Source of the DNA: Xylogone sp. PMI_703
Taxonomy: Eukaryota > Ascomycota > Leotiomycetes
Length of the DNA stretch: 64,000 bases
NCBI GenBank assembly: GCA_021399445.1
Contig: JAJTUQ010000001.1
Location: 5,952,001 to 6,016,000, forward strand
Direction: 5' to 3'
A model generated the notes under the pieces. It did not search any database. It saw nothing but the letters and a program-made list of their open reading frames with translations, and had not been told where the DNA came from. Of the stretch, positions 15,730 through 27,316 are shown in pieces. The position numbers were made by a program, and so were the translations under genes. The first letter of the stretch is position 1, and every line of letters starts with the position of its first letter.

Positions 15730-18700
15730 CTTGCTTAAAAGACCGTGGTGGTTATGGAAGGAGGATAAGCTCTCTTGCCCAGGCAGAGAGAGCTCTCAGT
15801 ATAAATGATTGTCGTGAAATCTCGTGTGGGAAATTCACTTCCTAACCATTGCCTATCGGTTTTGATGTAGATTCAAGGTATGAAATAGTCGGACACTGAA
15901 ACCAAATGGGGTGCTGAGTCTGTTCGTGGTCGATCCTGTGCCCGGTCGTTGCTGCTGCAGACGTGATGTGCTATGAAATACTGGTCCTGAATATAACTCT
16001 CGTTCTCTAGTCTTTCTTTCCCTTGCGAATAATACACCTCAGAAAACACGATAACTCTTCTTGCTTTTAGTAATTCGCCAATTCCACGACTCAACCAGGA
16101 GATCGTGATGTATTAGTAGTGATCAAATTAAGTATAAGAACTCCACGCCCAAATGACAAACCGTTCCAATCACTTTTCGTTTGGACGAGACAGTTGGTAA
16201 GCAATGATGTAAGTTGGTAGAGAACGAAAACCTCGAGGCAATTCAGTGATGTGGATCGTTGGAAAAGCGCAGAATGCGTATAACTAGTAATACCGGGGAA
16301 CAGGGTACCCCAAGTGACTTTTAGATTTGACCAAAAGCTACGAAAGGGCGGCACCGTTCACGTGGCCACCAGAGATAAGCCAAAGGTGCGAGATGGGATG
16401 CAGAATGATTGCAAGTTGTCACCAACTTTCAGCCTCTGCTGCGGCCGCCGAGGTCGACCTCGTTGCTCGCCCAGCTGCTTCGGAGCCTTCTGCCGCGCGC
16501 GCGGTACGGGGATAGGCTAATGCTGGAGGATAAAAATAGAGTCGCCCTCGAGAAGAAATGCTTCAAGACCAGCGCGTCGCAAAAAAAGGGTTGACAAAAC
16601 CGTTTGAGGAATCAATCTGTGGTGTTTGATTCTAAATATGGAGTCTCGAGTATCTTGGAGCGGGGACCCAGCGGTTTGGTAACGTAGAGGGAGCTTTGAA
16701 GCGGTTTGGGGCAGCCGCTGCCAATATATTGACGCTCGCCTGTCCCGGGCCCTGGTGCCAGTTGAGAGCCTGGGGTACGGTGGGCGGAGTTCCCTCTCGC
16801 GCGCCTATTGCGGCGACGGCTGTCGCTAAGAAAATTTAGCGGTTCCTCCTGGGGGACAGACACTCGACAGGCTCAACTCACTAGCTCGCCACGATACGAA
16901 CCACCCAACTCCGTCCCAGGCATGGCCACGGGTTTGGTTTTGGGTATGGTCCATTACTGACGCACGCAACGGATATCTTGCGATCAGGGCTCTGCATCTC
17001 TAGATTCAATCGGGCCCCGTTCCTCGTTGGGACACGGCGCATCTACGGTGCTGATTGGCATCCACTGCTGCCCCTCGGGTGGTTCCAGTCGTGCCAGTGA
17101 GATCTAACAGTTTGGAATCTACAACCTCGCCGTCGATTACCCAATGCCATTGGTGGAGAGAAGGAGATCGTGCCTTGCCTAGGGCGAAGCTTGTTCCGAT
17201 CCTCTCTCTCTCTTCTCTTGTCTCTGCGTCGGTGCACACACGAGCAACTTGGGCACTACTACCACAGTCCAGTACAGTACAAGTCCTAGCACGGCGCGGT
17301 ACGGTACGATACTTCTGCTGGCGGATAATCATTCACCAGCACTAGTCAAGGCTCTCTCTGGATCGAATAATGATTGCGTACAATCTCCAACCATGCCCGC
17401 CAGACAACCCAACCCATTCTTCTTCCCCAGTGCGCCCAGGGATAAAGGGAGCCTCGTCCTGGATCGCTAGGGCCTCCTTCGGCTGGGCAGGAACCCATGC
17501 TGTGATCCGGATCGGGAGGAGGAGAAGCAAGAATAAGAGCAGGAGCAGCAGAACAAGCAGCAGATGAACGAGGGAATAACAGACCAACAAGCCAGAGAAG
17601 ATTACCTGATGCGACGCTGCACACAACAGAAAGGCTCTGTGCCCGAAGAGAACCAGCTGAGGCGGCTGCTCGCTTTTGCGACTGCACGCAGCGCTGGCCC
17701 CCCTGTGAGGCACAAATCACAGGCGTGCGATACTACCGCGGTGCGGCGGCCCCTGCAGCGCGGCGTGATTGGATGCCTCTCGCTCGGCGGGTATCTCGAT
17801 TAGGCAAGGCTGCAGCGAGGGCGAAGGGTGACATGAACGCGGCCTTGGGTGAGGGAAGGTTGGCGAGGGTTGGGAGGGGAATGCCAGAGCGAGGCATTGA
17901 TCGACCGGGCTGGGCCAGGGTCAGCGCCGCCGTGATTGGAGCGGTGGGCGAGGCGATGTCTGTGATGCGGCAGACCAGCCCACCCGCACGCAACTGCAGC
18001 AATGTGGTGCATGGGCACGCAAGCGGTCGTCGCGGGAGGTCCAGCGTCGTCCAGCTCTGGCACACTTGCCGCGCCCCGGCCCCAAAGCCCAAATACCCTG
18101 AGGCAGGCGGGCAGCCTCCGAGGCTCTCGCGCCAATCTCACTGCAGCGCGCTCTGAGGCATCCACTCCCCGCTGGCTGGGGGGTGATGACAGTAGCTCGA
18201 GTAGGTCCTGCCTCTGGTCAAGCTACTGTTGGTTATGGCCTTTTCTTTGCACCGCGGCGGGAGAGACCTCGTCCAGAACCCAGGACCATCCCACTGCATC
18301 GCCGATATTCCGGAATCACCTCTGCTGGATCCGGCCAGGCACACGCATGTAGTGATACCACGCCGCTGCGCCGTGAGCACCGTCCAGTTGGTTATCGGTC
18401 AGACCAGCGGCCATGGGAATGGGCGTGGGTTGCGTACTCGACTGCTCGACCACTCACGTCTTGGTTTGCTGCGAACATGATACTGTGGACAATGCTAATA
18501 CTGTGTACAGTCATGGTCTCTAGTACGGTAACGCTTCCAGTTCTTCTGAAATATGAAACAGTGCAGCGGAACGGATGCGCGGCCAGGATGCTGGACAAGA
18601 ATAGCAGCTCGAGGGGCTTTTTGGGATACTCCAACCACTGCACCTGTCACCTCGTCGCCATCCGGGGATCCATAAATCCAGGCTGTTGGAAGCACCTTGG

Positions 18701-21700
18701 GATGTGCGTGATGATTTAGAGGAGTGGGCCTCGAGGTTATTACCGGTGTCTCTTCCTTCCAGCCACGGCCGAAGACTCACTTCTCACAGCCGATCCGTCC
18801 GCTTATAGCGTCAAGCCGGAAATATTTCTCTCCCAACCCTGCCGACCTGCGTCTATGGCCACTCTGGATGTGACGGTCGACCACGCCCGAATCTCAGCTT
18901 TTCTTTCCAGCGCAGCCGAGTAGCAAGACTAACAAGTATCCATACGTGCTGGAGGACGAGGGCGTGCAGCGTGATTATCACTGCCGTCGATCGAATCACC
19001 TGCCGGCAAGGCACACGCAGATGCATCAATACGGCAGTGTAACATGACGGAGATGCTGGGCTGCTGGGCTGCTCGTACGTACAATAGCAATACCGTGAAT
19101 GCACAATCGCACACCTCCCTTTCCATTCGACTCCAGCGAGCACGTTTCTTCTCGTGCGCGATGGTTCCACGAGTACGGCTCAGTGTTTCAACGTCGAGTA
19201 CCGTGCAGGCACATACGCGCGCTCGTTAGGCAAACACCAAGGGCAATGGCCGCGACACCCAATGCTGTCCAGACTCGACGCAGCTTGGGACGCAGCTCGA
19301 CGGCGAAAGGCTGGATCCCTAATCCTCAACTAGGGAAGGTCCAGATGCTCTGGAAGCTTGCGACGGACGAATGGGCGAGGGAGGACGGCTCTTTGCGAAG
19401 CACCCTCCATAAGTGCCCACCCAGAAATGCGCTGCAGGGGCCCACGCTTGCGCATTAGGCGCGCCGTGACCGCTTCCGCAACCTCCAAACGTCTAACTGG
19501 AGCGCTGTACGACCCTCAGCCTTCTGTGACGGGGCCGCTGTGGCAGCCGCCGGCTCTAAGTCAGTGCTTTCTTAGGGCACGTTGGAGCGCCGGTACGGTA
19601 TCTGCATGCAGGCGCAGTGTACTGTACTGTACTGTTACTGTACGGTACAGTGTAAAAGGAAACGGAGGAAAGCGGAAAAGTACCGGCTAGTCATCACTTC
19701 CAGCGTGCGCCCTTTGAGAGAATAGTAAGTAAAGCCCCCATGACAACCGCAAATGCCCTTTGGGACTTTGTGTGTCTGTGTTTCCTCAGCGCTGGGCATC
19801 GTGCCGAACCGTGCCTCATTATTACTCCGCACATCCAGTCCAATTGTTGGAGCGATCACCCAATGGCCAAACGTCTCCCGGGGGGTTCTGCATGTTTCAC
19901 CCACATCCCTCGCCCTTGAACCTGGATGATAATGCGGAGTGGCTTGGCTGGCTCATGGCCGCGTGATTCACCTTCTCTAGTGGTCCTCTGGCCTTCCAAT
20001 ACTGTATCAACCAGAATGGCGACTGTTGGTGTCATGAGTCGGCTCCCAGTTTTAGCCGCCAAGCACCACTGTGCGCAACATGTCATATATCGTTGCTCAC
20101 TGCCTGTATTGCCTGGATTCTCCCCGGGCTCGTGTCATCATAAAAGAGTCCGATATTGCATTGGAATATACTCACAGTGTGCATGAAAGTAATTCAAATA
20201 CGGGCACAATAAGACCTCAATTGAAGGTGGAGGGTTGTAGGCACCATCCGAACTTGCCGTCTGTGCCTGCCAGAAAGGCCAGGAGGCCTGCGCGGGCAAA
20301 CCCCATCGAAGCCCATCAGGCCCAAATCTCGATCGCGGCAAAGGGCTCAAACGCGCGCCCTGCACGTGAAATCCGCCCGTCTCACCGCCAAACCAAAACC
20401 TTACTCCAGGCACCTCCAACAACGGTACACAGCTACTGCGCTGGAATAGACTCGAGACACCCAATGCAAGGAGCAGCGCAACTGCACTCTTTGGAAATTC
20501 AACACCAAAGCTAATTGTTCTGTATTGTTTTTCCATAGATCTCGTCCAATCGATTCATCACTATGTATGTTTCAGACTTTGACAAGTTCGCGACCGCCAA
20601 TCATATGCATGGCAGATAGCCGCCGTGTAAGCGCCTTCGAAGCCTCTTTCTCGAAGCATCTTCCACGTCGGTTTCTATATTTGACTCCCACGAGTTTTCC
20701 AACCACTGAAGAATCTATGTCCTACACCACCTCGCGGATCTTCAACGCTCTCCTTGCAGCACGTACACGTTGGTATACAAATAGAACTTCAAATAAGCTT
20801 GATTTCCGGTCGGTACCTGCAGGAATCGCTGCCTCAAGGCATGCGAGTGTAGGGCGCTTCAGCGTCTCGCCTACCACGGCCACTCCGTGCTGTATATCGT
20901 CATCAAGTGCATGAGCTATTGAGCGAAGAGGCCCTCGAACCGCCTAGCACCAGTGAGATGATGCCTATTCAGGGGAACCTGTCCCCTTAAACGGCATCCC
21001 CAACGTCATAAGGCTGATTAAAGATTGACCGTGGGATCTAAGCGCCCATGCAGGTACTCATCAACCTCAACCTCAGGGATCTGTAAGGCTGTTGGTGTCT
21101 TCCAGCGCTTTGGTTCATCAAAATGTGATCTATCTCTCCATGGGGAAGGGAGTCAGAACTAAGATCTTGTTCCTGGCCCCAGATCTTGGACATCTGGGTA
21201 TCAAATTCTGCATGCAATGTGACGAAGTTTCTATATATATCTTTTCGTCTTGATTTGTTAGTTATGGTAAGTGAAGATTGCTTTAAATAGGTTTCGAAAA
21301 CGTTCGAGATTGTTCATTACCCCCCTACCAACCCACCAACTTGCTTCTCACTCGAAAAACGGTAGGCTTCCATTGAGTTTCTGCAGGTATAATTGGGTAC
21401 CTACCCACGACGCCAACATGCAGGTACGCGGTTAGTTATGACGGTGAGTGTGTTCTATATCGTCAGTTCTATTTATAACTCTGGCTTCTCTAAGTTCCTG
21501 TTTCGTCTCTGTGATCACAGCGCTTTTCAACATTGGGCGCAAAGAGTCTTGTCCTAGTGGATGTGATAGCTCTTGGACATGATTACCAATGAAAAACTTT
21601 TCTTGGGAATATAGTTGTGGAGATGAAGTTCATCCCGTTAGCAAAAATTATGTTGCCGCTATAGTCACCTATCTCCTACACCAAGTACTCTCTTAGTCGC

Positions 21701-22306
21701 GCGCTTTCCATGAAGTCTCTCCGATAGTGTACATTTATGGAGAAACGAGATGATACCAACGTATGACCACATCACATTCCAGTTTGAGATACGAGATCAC
21801 TTGAATGAGTGAGTCTATCATGTATATGCAATCCAAAAGGGGAGGTGTACTCCCTTACACTTGAGTGAATATCTGTAAGGTTAATGATACGTTCTATTAT
21901 TACTACCATTTTGCAGTTGACCTTGTATAGTTGGATGCATAGTAGCTCTGAACATCTATACTTAGAATACAGTGATGAGAACTGCAGTTGTGTTGGCAAT
22001 GTACAGCGTTTGCATTACGCATGCGAGTCTTCTCCTAGTTGACCACTCTCTACACTCGTAGAGTATGCAAGTAAACCCTATTATGGGTTTTCCCAGTTCA
22101 AGTTATTTGCTTAGCTACACTTCTTTCACATCTTTCAAAAGTATATTGAAAGAGCATTCTAGCAAATAGAAAAGGGAAAGTTTCTATAGAGTAAATGACA
22201 AAAAAGTCTCACCATACAGAGCTATTGCCTTGCTATGCGTCCTGCTATGTCCTGCATCTCCCTGGTTTCTGTGATTTACACTCTCTTAGCTGCGTATTAT
22301 AACCGC
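15730..22306. other. gene-free interval, left part (GC-rich then AT-rich)
   Basis: About 6.6 kb in which I can support no gene on either strand. From about 16.3 to 20.5 kb it is GC-rich and CpG-containing, with many short overlapping frames and GTAC-centred motifs (17.27-17.31 and 19.62-19.65 kb). From about 20.9 kb the composition turns AT-rich. A frame at about 20525-20914 has no recognisable domain. The left end probably includes the promoter and missing 5' exon of the Zn2Cys6 fusion gene. The rest could be regulatory DNA, a long noncoding transcript or degraded repeats. Confidence 0.5.
19618..19652. repeat. short GTAC-rich palindromic repeat
   Basis: Tandem TGTAC/ACTGT units (TGTACTGTACTGTACTG then TTACTGTACGGTACAGTG). 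The sequence is largely self-complementary and could form a short cruciform. Similar GTAC-centred clusters recur in other intergenic parts of the window. Confidence 0.7.
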
Positions 22307-23563
22307 GCCGAGACTTATAGCGTAAGTCTTCGATGATCAGACAAGCAACGAATATTGTACATCACTGAGAGATGAGATGTGGATCGCCGAGATATATAGC
22401 GAAGAATTTTCAAGCGCAGAGACGCAACGAATATCGTACATCACTCTTATATTATCTACAGATGAGGATAAGACTGGAGCGCCGAGATATATAGTGATAA
22501 ATTCTCACGAGTAGAGACACAATGAAAGATCTCTATTACAGTCCATATCTATGCCGAGATATATGGTGAAGAATTTTTACGACGAGAGATGCAACGAAAT
22601 AGATCTGTTTACTGTCCATATTCATGCCGAGCTTTATAGTGACGAATTTCCATGACGAGAGACGCAACGAAAGATCTGTCCATGGTCCCAATATCCATGC
22701 CGAGCTTTATAGTGAAGAATTCTCACGATCAGAGATGCAACGGAAGGTCTGTTTGTGGTTCATATTTATGCCGAGCTTTATAGTGATGGATTTTCAGAAC
22801 AAGAGACGCAACGAAATAGAGTTGTTTACATGGCCATATCTTATGCCGAGATATATAGTGACGAATTTTCATGATCAGAGACGCAACGAAAGATCTGTTT
22901 ACTCTGTATCTGTGTCGAGCTTTATAGTGAAGAATCTTGAAACCAGATTCGCAACGAAGAGATATACTTTCTTGTTAGCAAGGAAAAACGCAAGCTTAGT
23001 ACGCCGAGAAATATAGTGACGATTCTCTGATCTCAGATCCGCAACGAAGGAACGTGTTTTCATGTTTTACCTTGCCTGATATAAAGAAACTATTGGCTCT
23101 ATGTGCCGAGAAATATAGTGATGGATGTCTGATCTCAGATCTGCAACGAAGAAATACACTTTCCTGCTTGCACTGGCCGACATAGGGAGTGACTGGCTCT
23201 GCACGTCGAGGGATATAGTGACGATTTCTTGATATCAGATCCGCAACGAAAAAAGGCATCTTCTATATTCATGGAGCATTTCACACCAAAAGAGTGATTA
23301 CAAATTTCCAATATATCACATTCACAATGCCGAGCAATATAGTGACGAAATTGCAGGTCAGAGACGCAACGAAGATTGAGAACTCATGAAAGAAGTACTA
23401 TGTCTATAGGTGCCGAGAGATATAGTGACGGTTTTCACGATTTAGATGCGCAACGAATTCTTCTGTCCCTTACTTACTACCGGTGATATCGCCGAGGGCT
23501 ATGGGCAATATATCCATGCCGAGCTTTATAGTGCGGTATTTTCACGCGTAGAGACGCAACGGA
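22307..23563 (+). repeat. array of about 15 copies of a conserved 46-bp element with variable spacers
   Basis: Each element begins GCCGAG, then three variable bases, then TATAGTGA (TATAGCG in the first two). A variable middle follows, then AGA and usually GCAACGAA. Elements begin at 22307, 22386, 22481, 22553, 22626, 22699, 22770, 22845, 22914, 23003, 23105, 23205, 23329, 23412 and 23518. The distance from GCCGAG to the terminal GCAACGAA block is 38 nt in 13 units and 37 in two, while spacers run from about 23 to 78 nt. Units 3-8 form a roughly 72-bp tandem series with related spacers; later units have longer, unrelated spacers. A degenerate half copy lies at about 23491. Pitch is not a multiple of three, so the reading frame changes between units and conservation is at the nucleotide level. 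Orientation is arbitrary. No protein gene is adjacent. Confidence 0.9.
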
Positions 23564-25206
23564 TGGTTATGTGTTGTTTTATGGCGGCAGGTGTGATTGG
23601 CTTGTCGGTTTTATGCCTCCCAGCTTGACTTAGTGATTGATATGGAGTTTGTGCTTCCGTTATTCTGGGCTCTACTTTTAGCTGATGCAAGGGCTATATG
23701 TCACTGTTTGTTCTATTAAAGCTTATTTGATGTTTTACCCTCCTTACTCTTAGATGCTGTGATTGATGAAAACCATTCTAGACTTATCATTAGAGGAAGC
23801 AGAGTTCTTCTCTGCTTAACTGTCGTGAATATCCATATCCATATATATTAAGGACCAATCTGCTCAAATCATCCTGATTGCCCTGACCACAGTAATAACC
23901 CGCTGCTTATGGTATTCAACAACACTTTCATGCAAAGAATAGCCGCATCTCAGTGCCGAAGTGAACGGCAACCAAAAAGTCATAGACCATTCCAAGAGAA
24001 GCTATTCCTTGAACATAGCACGCAGTCACTAAGATAAACAGTCCAGATCTGGATTTCAACACCACTAGCTCTGCTATAATAGCAAAGGCTGACAAGAGCT
24101 ATCAGGATGCCCTGGAGAGAAATGATTCCACCGCCGAGTATGCAAAAGTAGACATTGGTCCATCCCTTGGTAAGTGAATTTGATAGTGGGCAAAGCAAAG
24201 TACTACCTACTCCTCTATATCTCTAGGTGAGGACCATATAGTGAGGGAGGGATGGATGATATTAGCTGGTAGGGGCCCATATCTTTAACACCTTATTGGT
24301 GACGAAGTCATACAAGAACTGTGCGTTTTAGTTACAAGACTTTAGTGTTGTGTATATATTGTTCAGTCTTAAGCATAAAAGCAAGGTCCATTGTTTATCA
24401 TACTAAGGCGCTCTTACTTGTTTGTTCCATATCTTTTGTTGCACATCGCAGTTCCTTCCATGGGTTTCTGTGTGTTTGGCTACCTACTTCTCATGATTTT
24501 TGTTGCACGTCGCATTGTCTTCCAGGACTTTCCACGCATATTTGCGTGACCTACACGGGGCATATAAGGTACGTTGCACATGTATTGGAATGATCTGGAT
24601 ATATTCCCGATTGATATAGGAAGAAAGGAGGGTATCTCGTGCTGATGTTCAATTCTTCTACTTGGTTTTACGCATATCCATGCATATCTGAGCGTCCTAA
24701 AAAAAAAGGCCTTCTTTTGTCGAGTTCTCTTATAATCCTCAGGTAGCTTGCTATGAAGCTTGTTCATGTTAGACTTGTACAGTAATGCCTGTACACATCG
24801 AAAACTGAATGTGCTGTTATGCCAGCTATAGGCTTTGCTCAACTAATTTAATGTCTACCCTCAGCATCTTAGGTCAAGAGAAGCACCGGGAATGATGAGA
24901 AAGCGGAAAGACAATATCAATTATCTGTATTGCAGATCCGGCAATTCATAGAGCCAGTTGTATAGTATATCTACATACAATATGCAGTTATGAATTATAT
25001 CCACATGCAAAGAAGGGATAGCACAACAATTGCTCTCCGCACCATTCCCATGTAATAGCTGATCCATACATATAAGAGGTCGAACAAACCGAGCCCAATC
25101 GAGGTACACCAGCAAAAAGACCATCACCAGACGGAGCAACAACATCGTTATACTCATACAGAGCCTCTTAGGTTATAGTAGGCCTCAATCACAACATGAT
25201 ATTCCC
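23564..25206. other. gene-free interval, right part
   Basis: AT-rich 1.6 kb between the 46-bp array and the 3' end of SWC4. The open frames are short and carry no recognisable domain. No further copies of the 46-bp element were found. Confidence 0.5.
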
Positions 25207-26874
25207 CTATTTCTTCATCCTTTTCGTGCTCTTGTCACTCACTGCACTGAGGACGCTGGCACTTCTCTTGTGCACACTGCTACCTCGCACAGAAGAAGCC
25301 TTATCCTTCTCGCTCTCTTCTACTTTGACATTGTCCTCTTCGACATCCGCATTAGCACCATCTCCATCCTCGCCATTTTCAGCTCTGGCCTTCTTTTCTT
25401 TCTCTTCTTTGTGTGCCTTAGCTACTGCAATCTCGGCGGTTAGCTTATCAGCAACTTTCTTAGAATCAAGCAGTATGTTGATGCTGTGTAGGAGATTCTC
25501 AAAGGCAGATGCAACAGTGGCCGTGGGCATGATGAGTCTAGGTGGTACTTCCAACTCAGCGAGAATGTTCGCAATCTTGGTCTGCTGAACAGTAGATTTG
25601 GTGTTGATTGGTCGATTGATCTTTTCATGTCGAAAGGCCGGTCCACCTGTGAGACGCTCATGGTGGCTGACACCGTAGGTACGCTCCTCCTCCTCAGTGA
25701 GTTTCTTCCGCTCGGCAGGACCCTGGCCACCTTTCTTTGTTGCGGCCGTGCTGGCTGCAGCAGTGGCACTGGAAGCACTAGGAGGCTCCCTGTGGGTGCT
25801 TTCTCGTCGGTCGAAGGCTGCTTGCTGAGCACTCGGGACAGGTGCAGGACTGACGCCATCTGTACCCATGAGCGATTTCCTCTTCTTCGCCTTATCTGCC
25901 GCCATGAGTTGCTGGAAGAGTTGTGCCAGGCCTTGACTGGTGGTATAAATGCCAATATTGCCTGTGCTTGGAGGAGTCTCGAGTCGAGCATATAGCTCTC
26001 TTCGTTCCTCTGCAAGTTTCTCTGACCGAGCAAGGATCCGCTTGAGTTCTAGTAAGAGGCTCTCTTCTTCCCTAATCTCTTCTTTGGTTCTATAGAATGC
26101 TTGTTCAGCAAACTTCTTGCGAGCTATCTCTTGAGCGGGGTTGAAATTCGACATCAGCTCATGCAAGTTGAACTCTGCCTGTCCCATAAACTGTAGAGGT
26201 TTCCGGACCGCCATCATCTTCGCTGCTACAGAGTAATACCGTGCCTTTAATTCCTCCATACTTCGGACTCTGGACGGCACCACGAGAGCAGTCGAATCTT
26301 CTCCACTCGAGGTTTCTGGGGGTGGAAGCTGATAGTCGTATCGATCCCATATAATCGGCCACCTCAAGTCATAGTCCTGAACCAGGCCCATTAAGTAATC
26401 TGTCTCATCCTTCGTCCAATGCTCGCTCTGCAGTTGCTTATTGTATTCCTCATCATTATATGTAGGGATGTTAACCTTGACGTTGAATTTGGCAAATGTC
26501 GAATCCTCTACTTGTTCCTGAACAGCTTCTTTTTCTCCCTCACCGTCGCCGCTGCCATCCTCACCAGCAGGAGTAGGTGGAGCTTCAGTCTTCCGTCTCC
26601 AGTGCCTCAATATAAACTCATCGCCTCGCGCGGAATTCTTAAATGCCTTCAACTCCCAGTTTGCAGCTGGTTTCCGACTCAGAAGTCGCCGTTTCTTGAA
26701 AACTGATATTTCTGGAACGATCGCAATGGGGTTGTCCCCTCCGAGGCTCTGTACTTCACGCGCCAATCCCTTCAGTCCCGATGGTCGTGGTCCTGTGGTT
26801 TTCTGCTTCTTCGCTGGTCTGGGGGCAGCCGCACCGGGCAGATCTAGCATATCGCGCACATCGTGGGACGTCAT
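25207..26874 (-). CDS. SWC4: SWR1-complex protein 4 (Swc4/Eaf2, DMAP1 family)
   Basis: Single exon, 555 aa. The N-terminus MTSHDVRDMLDLPG and KKRRLLSRKPAANWELKAFKNSARGDEFILRHWRR are characteristic of DMAP1/Swc4. A SANT/Myb-like segment (YNDEEYNKQLQSEHWTKDETDYLMGLVQDYDLRWPIIWDRYDY, residues about 120-163) follows, then RSMEELKARYYSVAAKMM. Next come a coiled-coil region (about 245-300) and a C-terminal domain with INTKSTVQQTKIANILAELEVPPRLIMPTATVASAFENLL. The protein is a shared subunit of the SWR1 (H2A.Z deposition) and NuA4 (histone acetylation) complexes in the nucleus. It lies head to head with the p24 gene, the start codons 442 bp apart. Length and domain order are normal for fungi. Confidence 0.93.
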   Translation of the reverse strand: MTSHDVRDMLDLPGAAAPRPAKKQKTTGPRPSGLKGLAREVQSLGGDNPIAIVPEISVFKKRRLLSRKPAANWELKAFKNSARGDEFILRHWRRKTEAPPTPAGEDGSGDGEGEKEAVQEQVEDSTFAKFNVKVNIPTYNDEEYNKQLQSEHWTKDETDYLMGLVQDYDLRWPIIWDRYDYQLPPPETSSGEDSTALVVPSRVRSMEELKARYYSVAAKMMAVRKPLQFMGQAEFNLHELMSNFNPAQEIARKKFAEQAFYRTKEEIREEESLLLELKRILARSEKLAEERRELYARLETPPSTGNIGIYTTSQGLAQLFQQLMAADKAKKRKSLMGTDGVSPAPVPSAQQAAFDRRESTHREPPSASSATAAASTAATKKGGQGPAERKKLTEEEERTYGVSHHERLTGGPAFRHEKINRPINTKSTVQQTKIANILAELEVPPRLIMPTATVASAFENLLHSINILLDSKKVADKLTAEIAVAKAHKEEKEKKARAENGEDGDGANADVEEDNVKVEESEKDKASSVRGSSVHKRSASVLSAVSDKSTKRMKK

Positions 26875-27316
26875 CTTTAGTGAACCTTCTCTGTTTCCAG
26901 ATCGCGAGATCCAAAAAATCCCTTCCTAATAAAAGCCCGCTAAAAAAAGTCCTTGATGGATTAGATGTCGGGTCACTAATTATTTGATGGAAACCTTTCC
27001 CTCTCCCCTCTGCGCTTTCGCGAAGCTCGAAATTTTGGTGTTCCAAGCAGCCTGCGCAACCAGAAAGGTCGCCAGTCGCGTTCTGCTATCAATCGAACGC
27101 TAGGCCTAATCTTCACGTGATACGGGGTGTGCAACCACAACCCCTGCTCCGTTTAGACAATATTGATTGGGAGAGGAACTTCTCGATTAATTCGAACGTG
27201 GCAGATTAGGAGAAGAAGCTCGTGTGCAACTTATCACAACCCTCCCTTACAGCTAAAACAAGGCCCAGAAGTCAATTTACGGAAAACTAGTTTGGGCCTA
27301 TCAATTGGTAGAAATC
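26875..27316. promoter_or_regulatory. divergent promoter region SWC4 / p24
   Basis: 442 bp between two outward-facing start codons, so a compact bidirectional promoter region. No specific motif is assigned. Confidence 0.4.

Follow-up and report, generated by a model that had tools for sequence, protein, structure and literature searches.

What is the repeated element of fixed length, set off by spacers of variable length, that occupies about 1.3 kb of the genome of the ascomycete Xylogone sp. PMI_703? The window that we analyzed is a stretch of 64,000 nucleotides (contig JAJTUQ010000001.1, positions 5,952,001 to 6,016,000), in which an initial annotation, made from the letters alone, had described about 15 copies of a 46-bp element with 2 conserved blocks, here called A and B. 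All 15 direct units are present where that annotation had placed them (22307–23563 in block coordinates; Table 1), with block starts 38 bp apart in 13 of 15 units and 37 bp apart in the remaining 2, exactly as described. Unit starts lie 69–124 bp apart which, minus 46, returns the reported spacers of 23–78 bp. At up to 3 mismatches, block A matches the window 23 times, including 16 matches inside the array, while 100 dinucleotide-preserving shuffles of the window yield 4.07 matches on average and never more than 9. The units score 45–64 bits on a weight matrix (55 columns; 90 units, of which this window supplied 5), and 3 mononucleotide shuffles of the window, scored with this matrix on one strand, give zero scores above 0 bits. 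The GC content of the array region is 0.40–0.42; it adjoins a segment (17000–20000) in which GC reaches 0.57–0.59 and to which no gene is assigned.

Table 1. Units of the array and associated features, in positions of the window.
Feature	Position	Strand	Basis or remark
Whole array, 15 direct units	22305..23566	+	Repeat comparison, block scan, matrix
Unit 1	22305..22355	+	45 bits
Unit 2	22384..22434	+	58 bits
Unit 3	22479..22529	+	48 bits
Unit 4	22551..22601	+	56 bits
Unit 5	22624..22674	+	63 bits
Unit 6	22697..22747	+	59 bits
Unit 7	22768..22818	+	59 bits
Unit 8	22843..22893	+	64 bits
Unit 9	22912..22961	+	49 bits; block spacing 37 (unit at 22914)
Unit 10	23001..23051	+	60 bits
Unit 11	23103..23153	+	52 bits
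Unit 12	23203..23253	+	58 bits
Unit 13	23327..23376	+	53 bits; block spacing 37 (unit at 23329)
Unit 14	23410..23460	+	57 bits
Unit 15	23516..23566	+	49 bits
Block-A-like stretch without block B	23491..23507	+	3 mismatches, chance level
SWC4 (SWR1-complex subunit, PF16282), nearest gene to the right	25207..26925	-	3' end toward array, about 1.65 kb off

The consensus of 153 units with 38-bp spacing reads AY-GCCGAG-ANW-TATAGTGA-HGAWTT, then 9 weak columns, then AGANNC-GCAACG-AAA. With the G of GCCGAG numbered as column 1, the information content goes up at column -1 and drops at about column 49. The AY before GCCGAG, the GA-TT after block A, and the AGA before and AAA after block B are thus part of the conserved element, which is indeed fixed but measures about 50 bp, not 46. 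When block spacings of 34–42 bp are allowed, 153 of 165 units have 38 bp, 8 have 37, and 4 have 39; in the final set, where only 37–39 bp was scored, spacing is exact in 224 of 244 units, shorter by one in 14, and longer by one in 6. Some columns are coupled, with TAGTGA giving way to a TAGCGCT variant. Specifically, column 15 is T in 212 units, 205 of which have A at column 17, and it is C in 32 of the 244, where column 17 is then C in 23 and T in 6. A coding repeat was rejected, since block A contains both TAG and TGA and 10 of the 14 start-to-start distances shift the frame; only 4 are multiples of 3, in line with the frame shift noted in the initial annotation. The array is therefore not a coding repeat gene, one of the outcomes named there as damaging to its reading.

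The phenomenon is also larger than the single array first noticed, since the genome (assembly of 50.13 Mb in 25 contigs) contains at least 31 such arrays. Their loci, denoted by L and a number, together hold 244 units scoring 25 bits or more, with a single unit at L068 and at L070 and as many as 18 at L029. Requiring block A to match exactly, with A or T at column 9, gives 70 and 62 genome matches, i.e. 132 in total, compared with 0 each for the reversed control. With any base at column 9 and up to 2 mismatches there are 508 matches against 308 in the control, and such loose matches taken alone therefore prove little. Among the 32 exact-core places examined, window included, 31 hold units; the other, L028 (C1:768243), was dropped as a chance exact-core match without block B. 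The figure of 31 is a lower bound, because loci whose cores are all decayed, or whose cores have C or G at that column and lie outside the matches listed, would escape. All 31 are on the 6 largest scaffolds (41.8 Mb; 6, 10, 2, 3, 7, and 3 loci), and the 19 smaller scaffolds, 8.35 Mb in total, lack the exact core (P = 0.004 for a uniform distribution, and 0.011 once neighbors are collapsed). The loci also cluster, with 6 gaps below 65 kb compared with 1.4 expected (P = 0.002, for a limit picked post hoc from the positions). In viral contigs and in bacterial and archaeal genomes there is, as expected, no exact match to the 2 blocks.

Does the unit act as RNA or as DNA? One proposal of the initial annotation was an array of small noncoding RNA genes. 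The blocks could then serve as promoters or as processing signals for short RNAs, and the repeat-spacer layout, mostly in one orientation per array, is what such genes might look like. RNAalifold, however, predicts 0 pairs on 90 units, which agrees with the earlier remark that no simple hairpin explains the blocks, and 12 units folded singly do no better than shuffles (within about 1.3 standard deviations). Rfam has zero matches in the window, and zero in the array even when E values as high as 1 are admitted; tRNA searches of the window and of 20 loci find none. Over 14 other loci the sole Rfam match is a C/D box snoRNA, Afu_335 (L022:30-125, 89.9 bits), at the edge of L022 and far from its array. 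Inverted units are also equally kept: in loci with at least 4 units, those on the minority strand average 52.5 bits (n = 26) and those on the majority strand 52.6 (n = 211). With no RNA fold and equal scores on both strands, we conclude that the unit acts as double-stranded DNA, and RNA genes become highly improbable. Two other candidates were rejected. The copies are about 60–85% like their reference and their starts are 69–124 bp apart in a fungal genome, which does not fit the near-identical repeats and even spacers of a CRISPR-like array. The B box of Pol III internal promoters is GWTCRANNC, at a variable distance from the A box; when the consensus is set by eye against the TFIIIC boxes, the block distance is fixed and a C replaces the required A of the B box.

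Spacers 20 bp or longer that separate same-strand neighbors were compared in 3,915 pairs, of which 43 are spacer-homologous (score 8 or more) against 1 in shuffles. For the 29 homologous pairs that join different loci, the mismatch rate is 38% in the middle columns and 3.3% in the core; the 14 pairs within a locus have 44 and 5.8%, and unrelated pairs 69 and 6.5%. Homologous copies are thus about half-way to saturation in their middle columns, with the core kept within a narrow range, and a difference of 3–6% in the blocks against 38–44% in the weak middle columns indicates that selection holds the blocks. Spacers of the homologous pairs mismatch at 24.5 and 24.1% (range 23–25%), a figure that understates drift and is not directly comparable with the core, because gapped alignment yields 30% even for unrelated spacers. 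The 44 blastn segments of at least 75% identity show 3.9% differences in the core, 19.6% in the spacer, and 31% in the middle. The spacer comparison took only units of at least 25 bits on both sides, which lowers apparent core divergence by excluding fully decayed units; decayed units are few, with 15 places at 12–25 bits compared with 244 at 25 or more.

These data bear on a neutral dispersed satellite, i.e. DNA without function whose conservation is only apparent and stems from recent copying. Tandem and ectopic copying are plainly present, as this reading demands, yet the core differs by 3–6% against 29–48% for the middle columns of those units, spacing is fixed across 31 loci, and few units are decayed. 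As such, it is strongly disfavored and scarcely credible. The diverged satellite under purifying selection that was proposed at the outset holds up as a mode of DNA evolution, although it names no function.

The reading we favor, and hold to be rather probable, is that the arrays are sites for a putative DNA-binding protein with 2 reading parts, and that tandem duplication and ectopic copying have spread them. A rigid motif, equivalent strands, and constraint on the putative contact bases are what an array of protein-binding sites displays, and among the proposals of the initial annotation the binding-site one is now the best supported, with the protein itself still putative. Each unit would be a double-stranded DNA site of about 50 bp for one bipartite protein or fixed complex, of which one part would read block A (AYGCCGAGANNTATAGTGA plus the GA-TT that follows) and the other block B (AGANNCGCAACGAAA). 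Because the blocks are fixed 38 bp apart, the reader should be rigid, e.g. a multi-finger protein, a double-HTH protein, or a heterodimer. A locus has up to 18 sites, and there are 31 or more loci; many copies of the protein would therefore assemble on each array, perhaps cooperatively, and make it a strong chromosomal landing platform. Arrays would grow by tandem duplication and pieces would be copied between loci, with selection keeping the contact bases.

Linkers of pairs, flanks, spacer copies, and periodicity were analyzed on 227 units in 26 loci; neighbor distances and coupled columns were counted on all 244 units. Units mostly share one orientation per array. Same-strand neighbors (n = 189) have a minimum start distance of 59 bp, as if a footprint barred overlap, and 122 of the 189 distances fall at 70–105 bp. 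The spacing histogram peaks near 60, 72, 81, 90, and 100, and periodicity is best at 9.4 bp and also found at 10.5 bp (P of about 0.004 each, within-locus repeats removed), a signal that is only suggestive because shared ancestry between loci remains and inflates it. Half of the 12 divergent neighbors stand at 14–16 bp, and 5 of the 12 convergent ones at 138–149 bp; these distances suggest preferred paired layouts. Three of the close divergent pairs have the same linker, ACAGTACTAGAWAT, which implies common descent of those 3, while the linkers of the other 3 differ, by eye, from it and from each other. The L019 divergent pair aligns by blastn with one L026 pair (81% over 85 bp), and common descent of these 2 is possible.

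The 2 halves of the unit are not always inseparable, as indicated by 28 lone block B sites in the arrays compared with 1 lone block A; within the arrays and 300 bp around them, full units account for 192 block B and 191 block A sites, and 2 further lone B sites occur elsewhere in the loci examined. At some lone block B sites the accompanying A has been altered by small changes or deletions. Block B may be the anchor half. At L025 (4450, 4775, 4934, and 5083, minus strand), block B is kept and CATGCTAGTGATA-like DNA replaces block A, alternating with full units.

Pieces of array, units and spacers together, are common to several loci and scaffolds (e.g. L024 and L025, 88% over 111 bp), and the window shares 87% identity over 224 bp with L011 on the same scaffold. 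Flanks of different arrays are mostly unrelated; exceptions are L014, which resembles L017 to the left of the array, and a few blastn matches outside arrays. One segment of about 249 bp (L009:5122-5367 and L013:5039-5276, both C1; 82%) lies beyond the L009 array and between L013 units. Another, of 171 bp, is 100% identical between L014:5835-6005 and L027:2538-2708, about 6 kb apart, beside 2 arrays and with no unit inside.

In a rival reading, the arrays might be non-autonomous mobile elements or their remnants, with the units as transposase-binding subterminal repeats. Several observations point this way, i.e. the segments shared by different scaffolds, the clustering of loci, the near-palindromic unit pairs with the same linker at L018, L026, and L034, and the 2.8 kb of L029, where a right-pointing run faces a left-pointing run (one inverted unit at the left edge excepted). 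DNA transposons such as Tc1/mariner, hAT, and En/Spm do carry subterminal or IR/DR repeats, which are repeated transposase sites with variable spacing, sometimes bipartite, and paired inverted. The arrays differ from these in that no terminal motif is common to the flanks of 26 of the 31 arrays, any 8-mer being found in at most 3, and in that the blocks are kept after copying, whereas in dead copies the core should decay at the pace of the middle columns. We also scanned 143 ORFs of at least 110 amino acids at 20 places (L009–L028, 19 with arrays), 30 of them singly and 113 in 3 sets, and none encodes a DNA transposase; a retroelement fragment is present in a single ORF of L009–L015 (set of 34), recognized by its gag_pre-integrase domain (E = 8.7e-05). 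In 7 arrays, the dinucleotide indices give no sign of RIP. A transposon body and common ends, which bear on another outcome named as damaging in the initial annotation, were sought and not found, and we regard a mobile origin as rather unlikely.

If the arrays are, as we favor, sites for a bipartite protein, they most probably serve as focal points of chromosome organization or local chromatin state, and regulation of a neighboring gene is nearly as likely. In the narrower, cis-regulatory form, the units would bind a transcription factor and each array would be the upstream control of one neighbor gene. Arrays do lie in low-GC intergenic stretches near ordinary genes, and at 8 loci the units are directed toward a coding segment's 5' end (to the right at L011, L014, L015, L017, and L019; to the left at L012, L023, and L024). 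In the window, by contrast, the units face the 3' end of SWC4 and no same-strand coding segment is near; the right-hand gene of L009 likewise has its 3' end toward the units, and both L025 neighbors converge on the array. According to a rough hexamer gene finder, arrays stand in front of, behind, and between genes with no visible rule (gene calls by these scores cover 20 of 31 loci, and 9 of the 20 are without a call on one or both sides). Flanking genes have no common theme either. Pfam matches in 16 of the 30 singly scanned ORFs include NAD kinase, Kelch, HET, gamma-tubulin complex, FMO, MFS, and others, the 113 ORFs in sets give 30 family rows with 1–2 members each, and blastp among the 143 finds no shared neighbor family, its 5 matches all being between array-overlapping ORFs. 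A locus with as many as 18 sites of 50 bp also far exceeds what fungal promoters usually need. Overall, control of single neighbor genes is possible and, to us, doubtful.

More specific, and to be put forward only tentatively, is a fungal chromosome-organizing system in which a fast-evolving, lineage-specific protein would read the rigid bipartite site of 50 bp, load in many copies at about 30 array loci on the large chromosomes, and cluster or tether these loci, with nuclear proximity explaining the copying; each of the 6 largest scaffolds has 2–10 array loci. The chromosomes of C. elegans each have their own specialized pairing region, recognized at short sites by one of 4 proteins. These meiotic pairing centers (ZIM-1/2/3 and HIM-8) are clustered sites of zinc-finger proteins with a chromosome-level job (PMC9908027). 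With their clustered binding sites they are the nearest analogue in layout; the arrays differ in that they share a single 50-bp element, occur several to a scaffold, belong to a fungus, and have a binder that is putative. In animals, insulator clusters of the CTCF type have a long site that one multi-finger protein reads in modules, with a spacer between. The module-plus-spacer layout is alike, the motif is unrelated, and CTCF sites are mostly single whereas the arrays are tandem. CTCF is not known from fungi, and neither are long-site architectural proteins of its kind.

Among dispersed ascomycete repeats, MATE of Aspergillus nidulans is a transposon repeat family whose copies are reported to carry CpG and CpA RIP changes (PMC2621366). 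It is among the nearest such repeats, and differs at least in its RIP, of which the 7 arrays show no signature. The reverse complement of block B starts with TTTCGTTG in the window array (22305–23566) and in other arrays, which resembles the first 8 letters of the CENP-B box; the second half of the box has no match. CENP-B box satellites carry a short protein-binding box within the repeat. Here the required second half is absent and the arrays are short and among genes, and the likeness is most likely a coincidence. No such element was found in the open-licence PMC literature by title and start of abstract among the matches listed, subscription papers and preprints being outside this scope, and literature with both block letter strings held nothing relevant by title. 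A 50-bp site in about 250 copies, with its blocks held by selection at 31 or more loci, is a ready bait for the putative long-site protein, and the array loci form a defined set for deletion.

Among the genes of the window, the SWC4 protein is 89% identical to that of Scytalidium lignicola, a leotiomycete of uncertain order, and the other named matches, among 120 listed, are presumably leotiomycetes as well. A Zn-cluster gene is located 6.5 kb from the array, and Myb-like domains occur in 2 ORFs of L009–L015, one at L012; none of these shows a connection with the arrays. A binder was sought through a zinc-finger scan, with 150 of 230 candidates scored. The only long tandem-finger protein found is encoded at L036:1159-2292 (G000:C21, minus strand), in the second of 2 consecutive in-frame ORFs with one stop between, and was rejected, since the site predicted for it by the zinc-finger recognition code is G-rich and unlike the unit. 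Its 8 C2H2 fingers have a regular 28-residue period, and the first ORF has a Pfam match (PF05551, 30.4 bits, cut-off 27) to the zinc-binding loop of homing endonucleases. The pair resembles a natural gene for an endonuclease guided by fingers, its 2 parts separated by an intron or a break.
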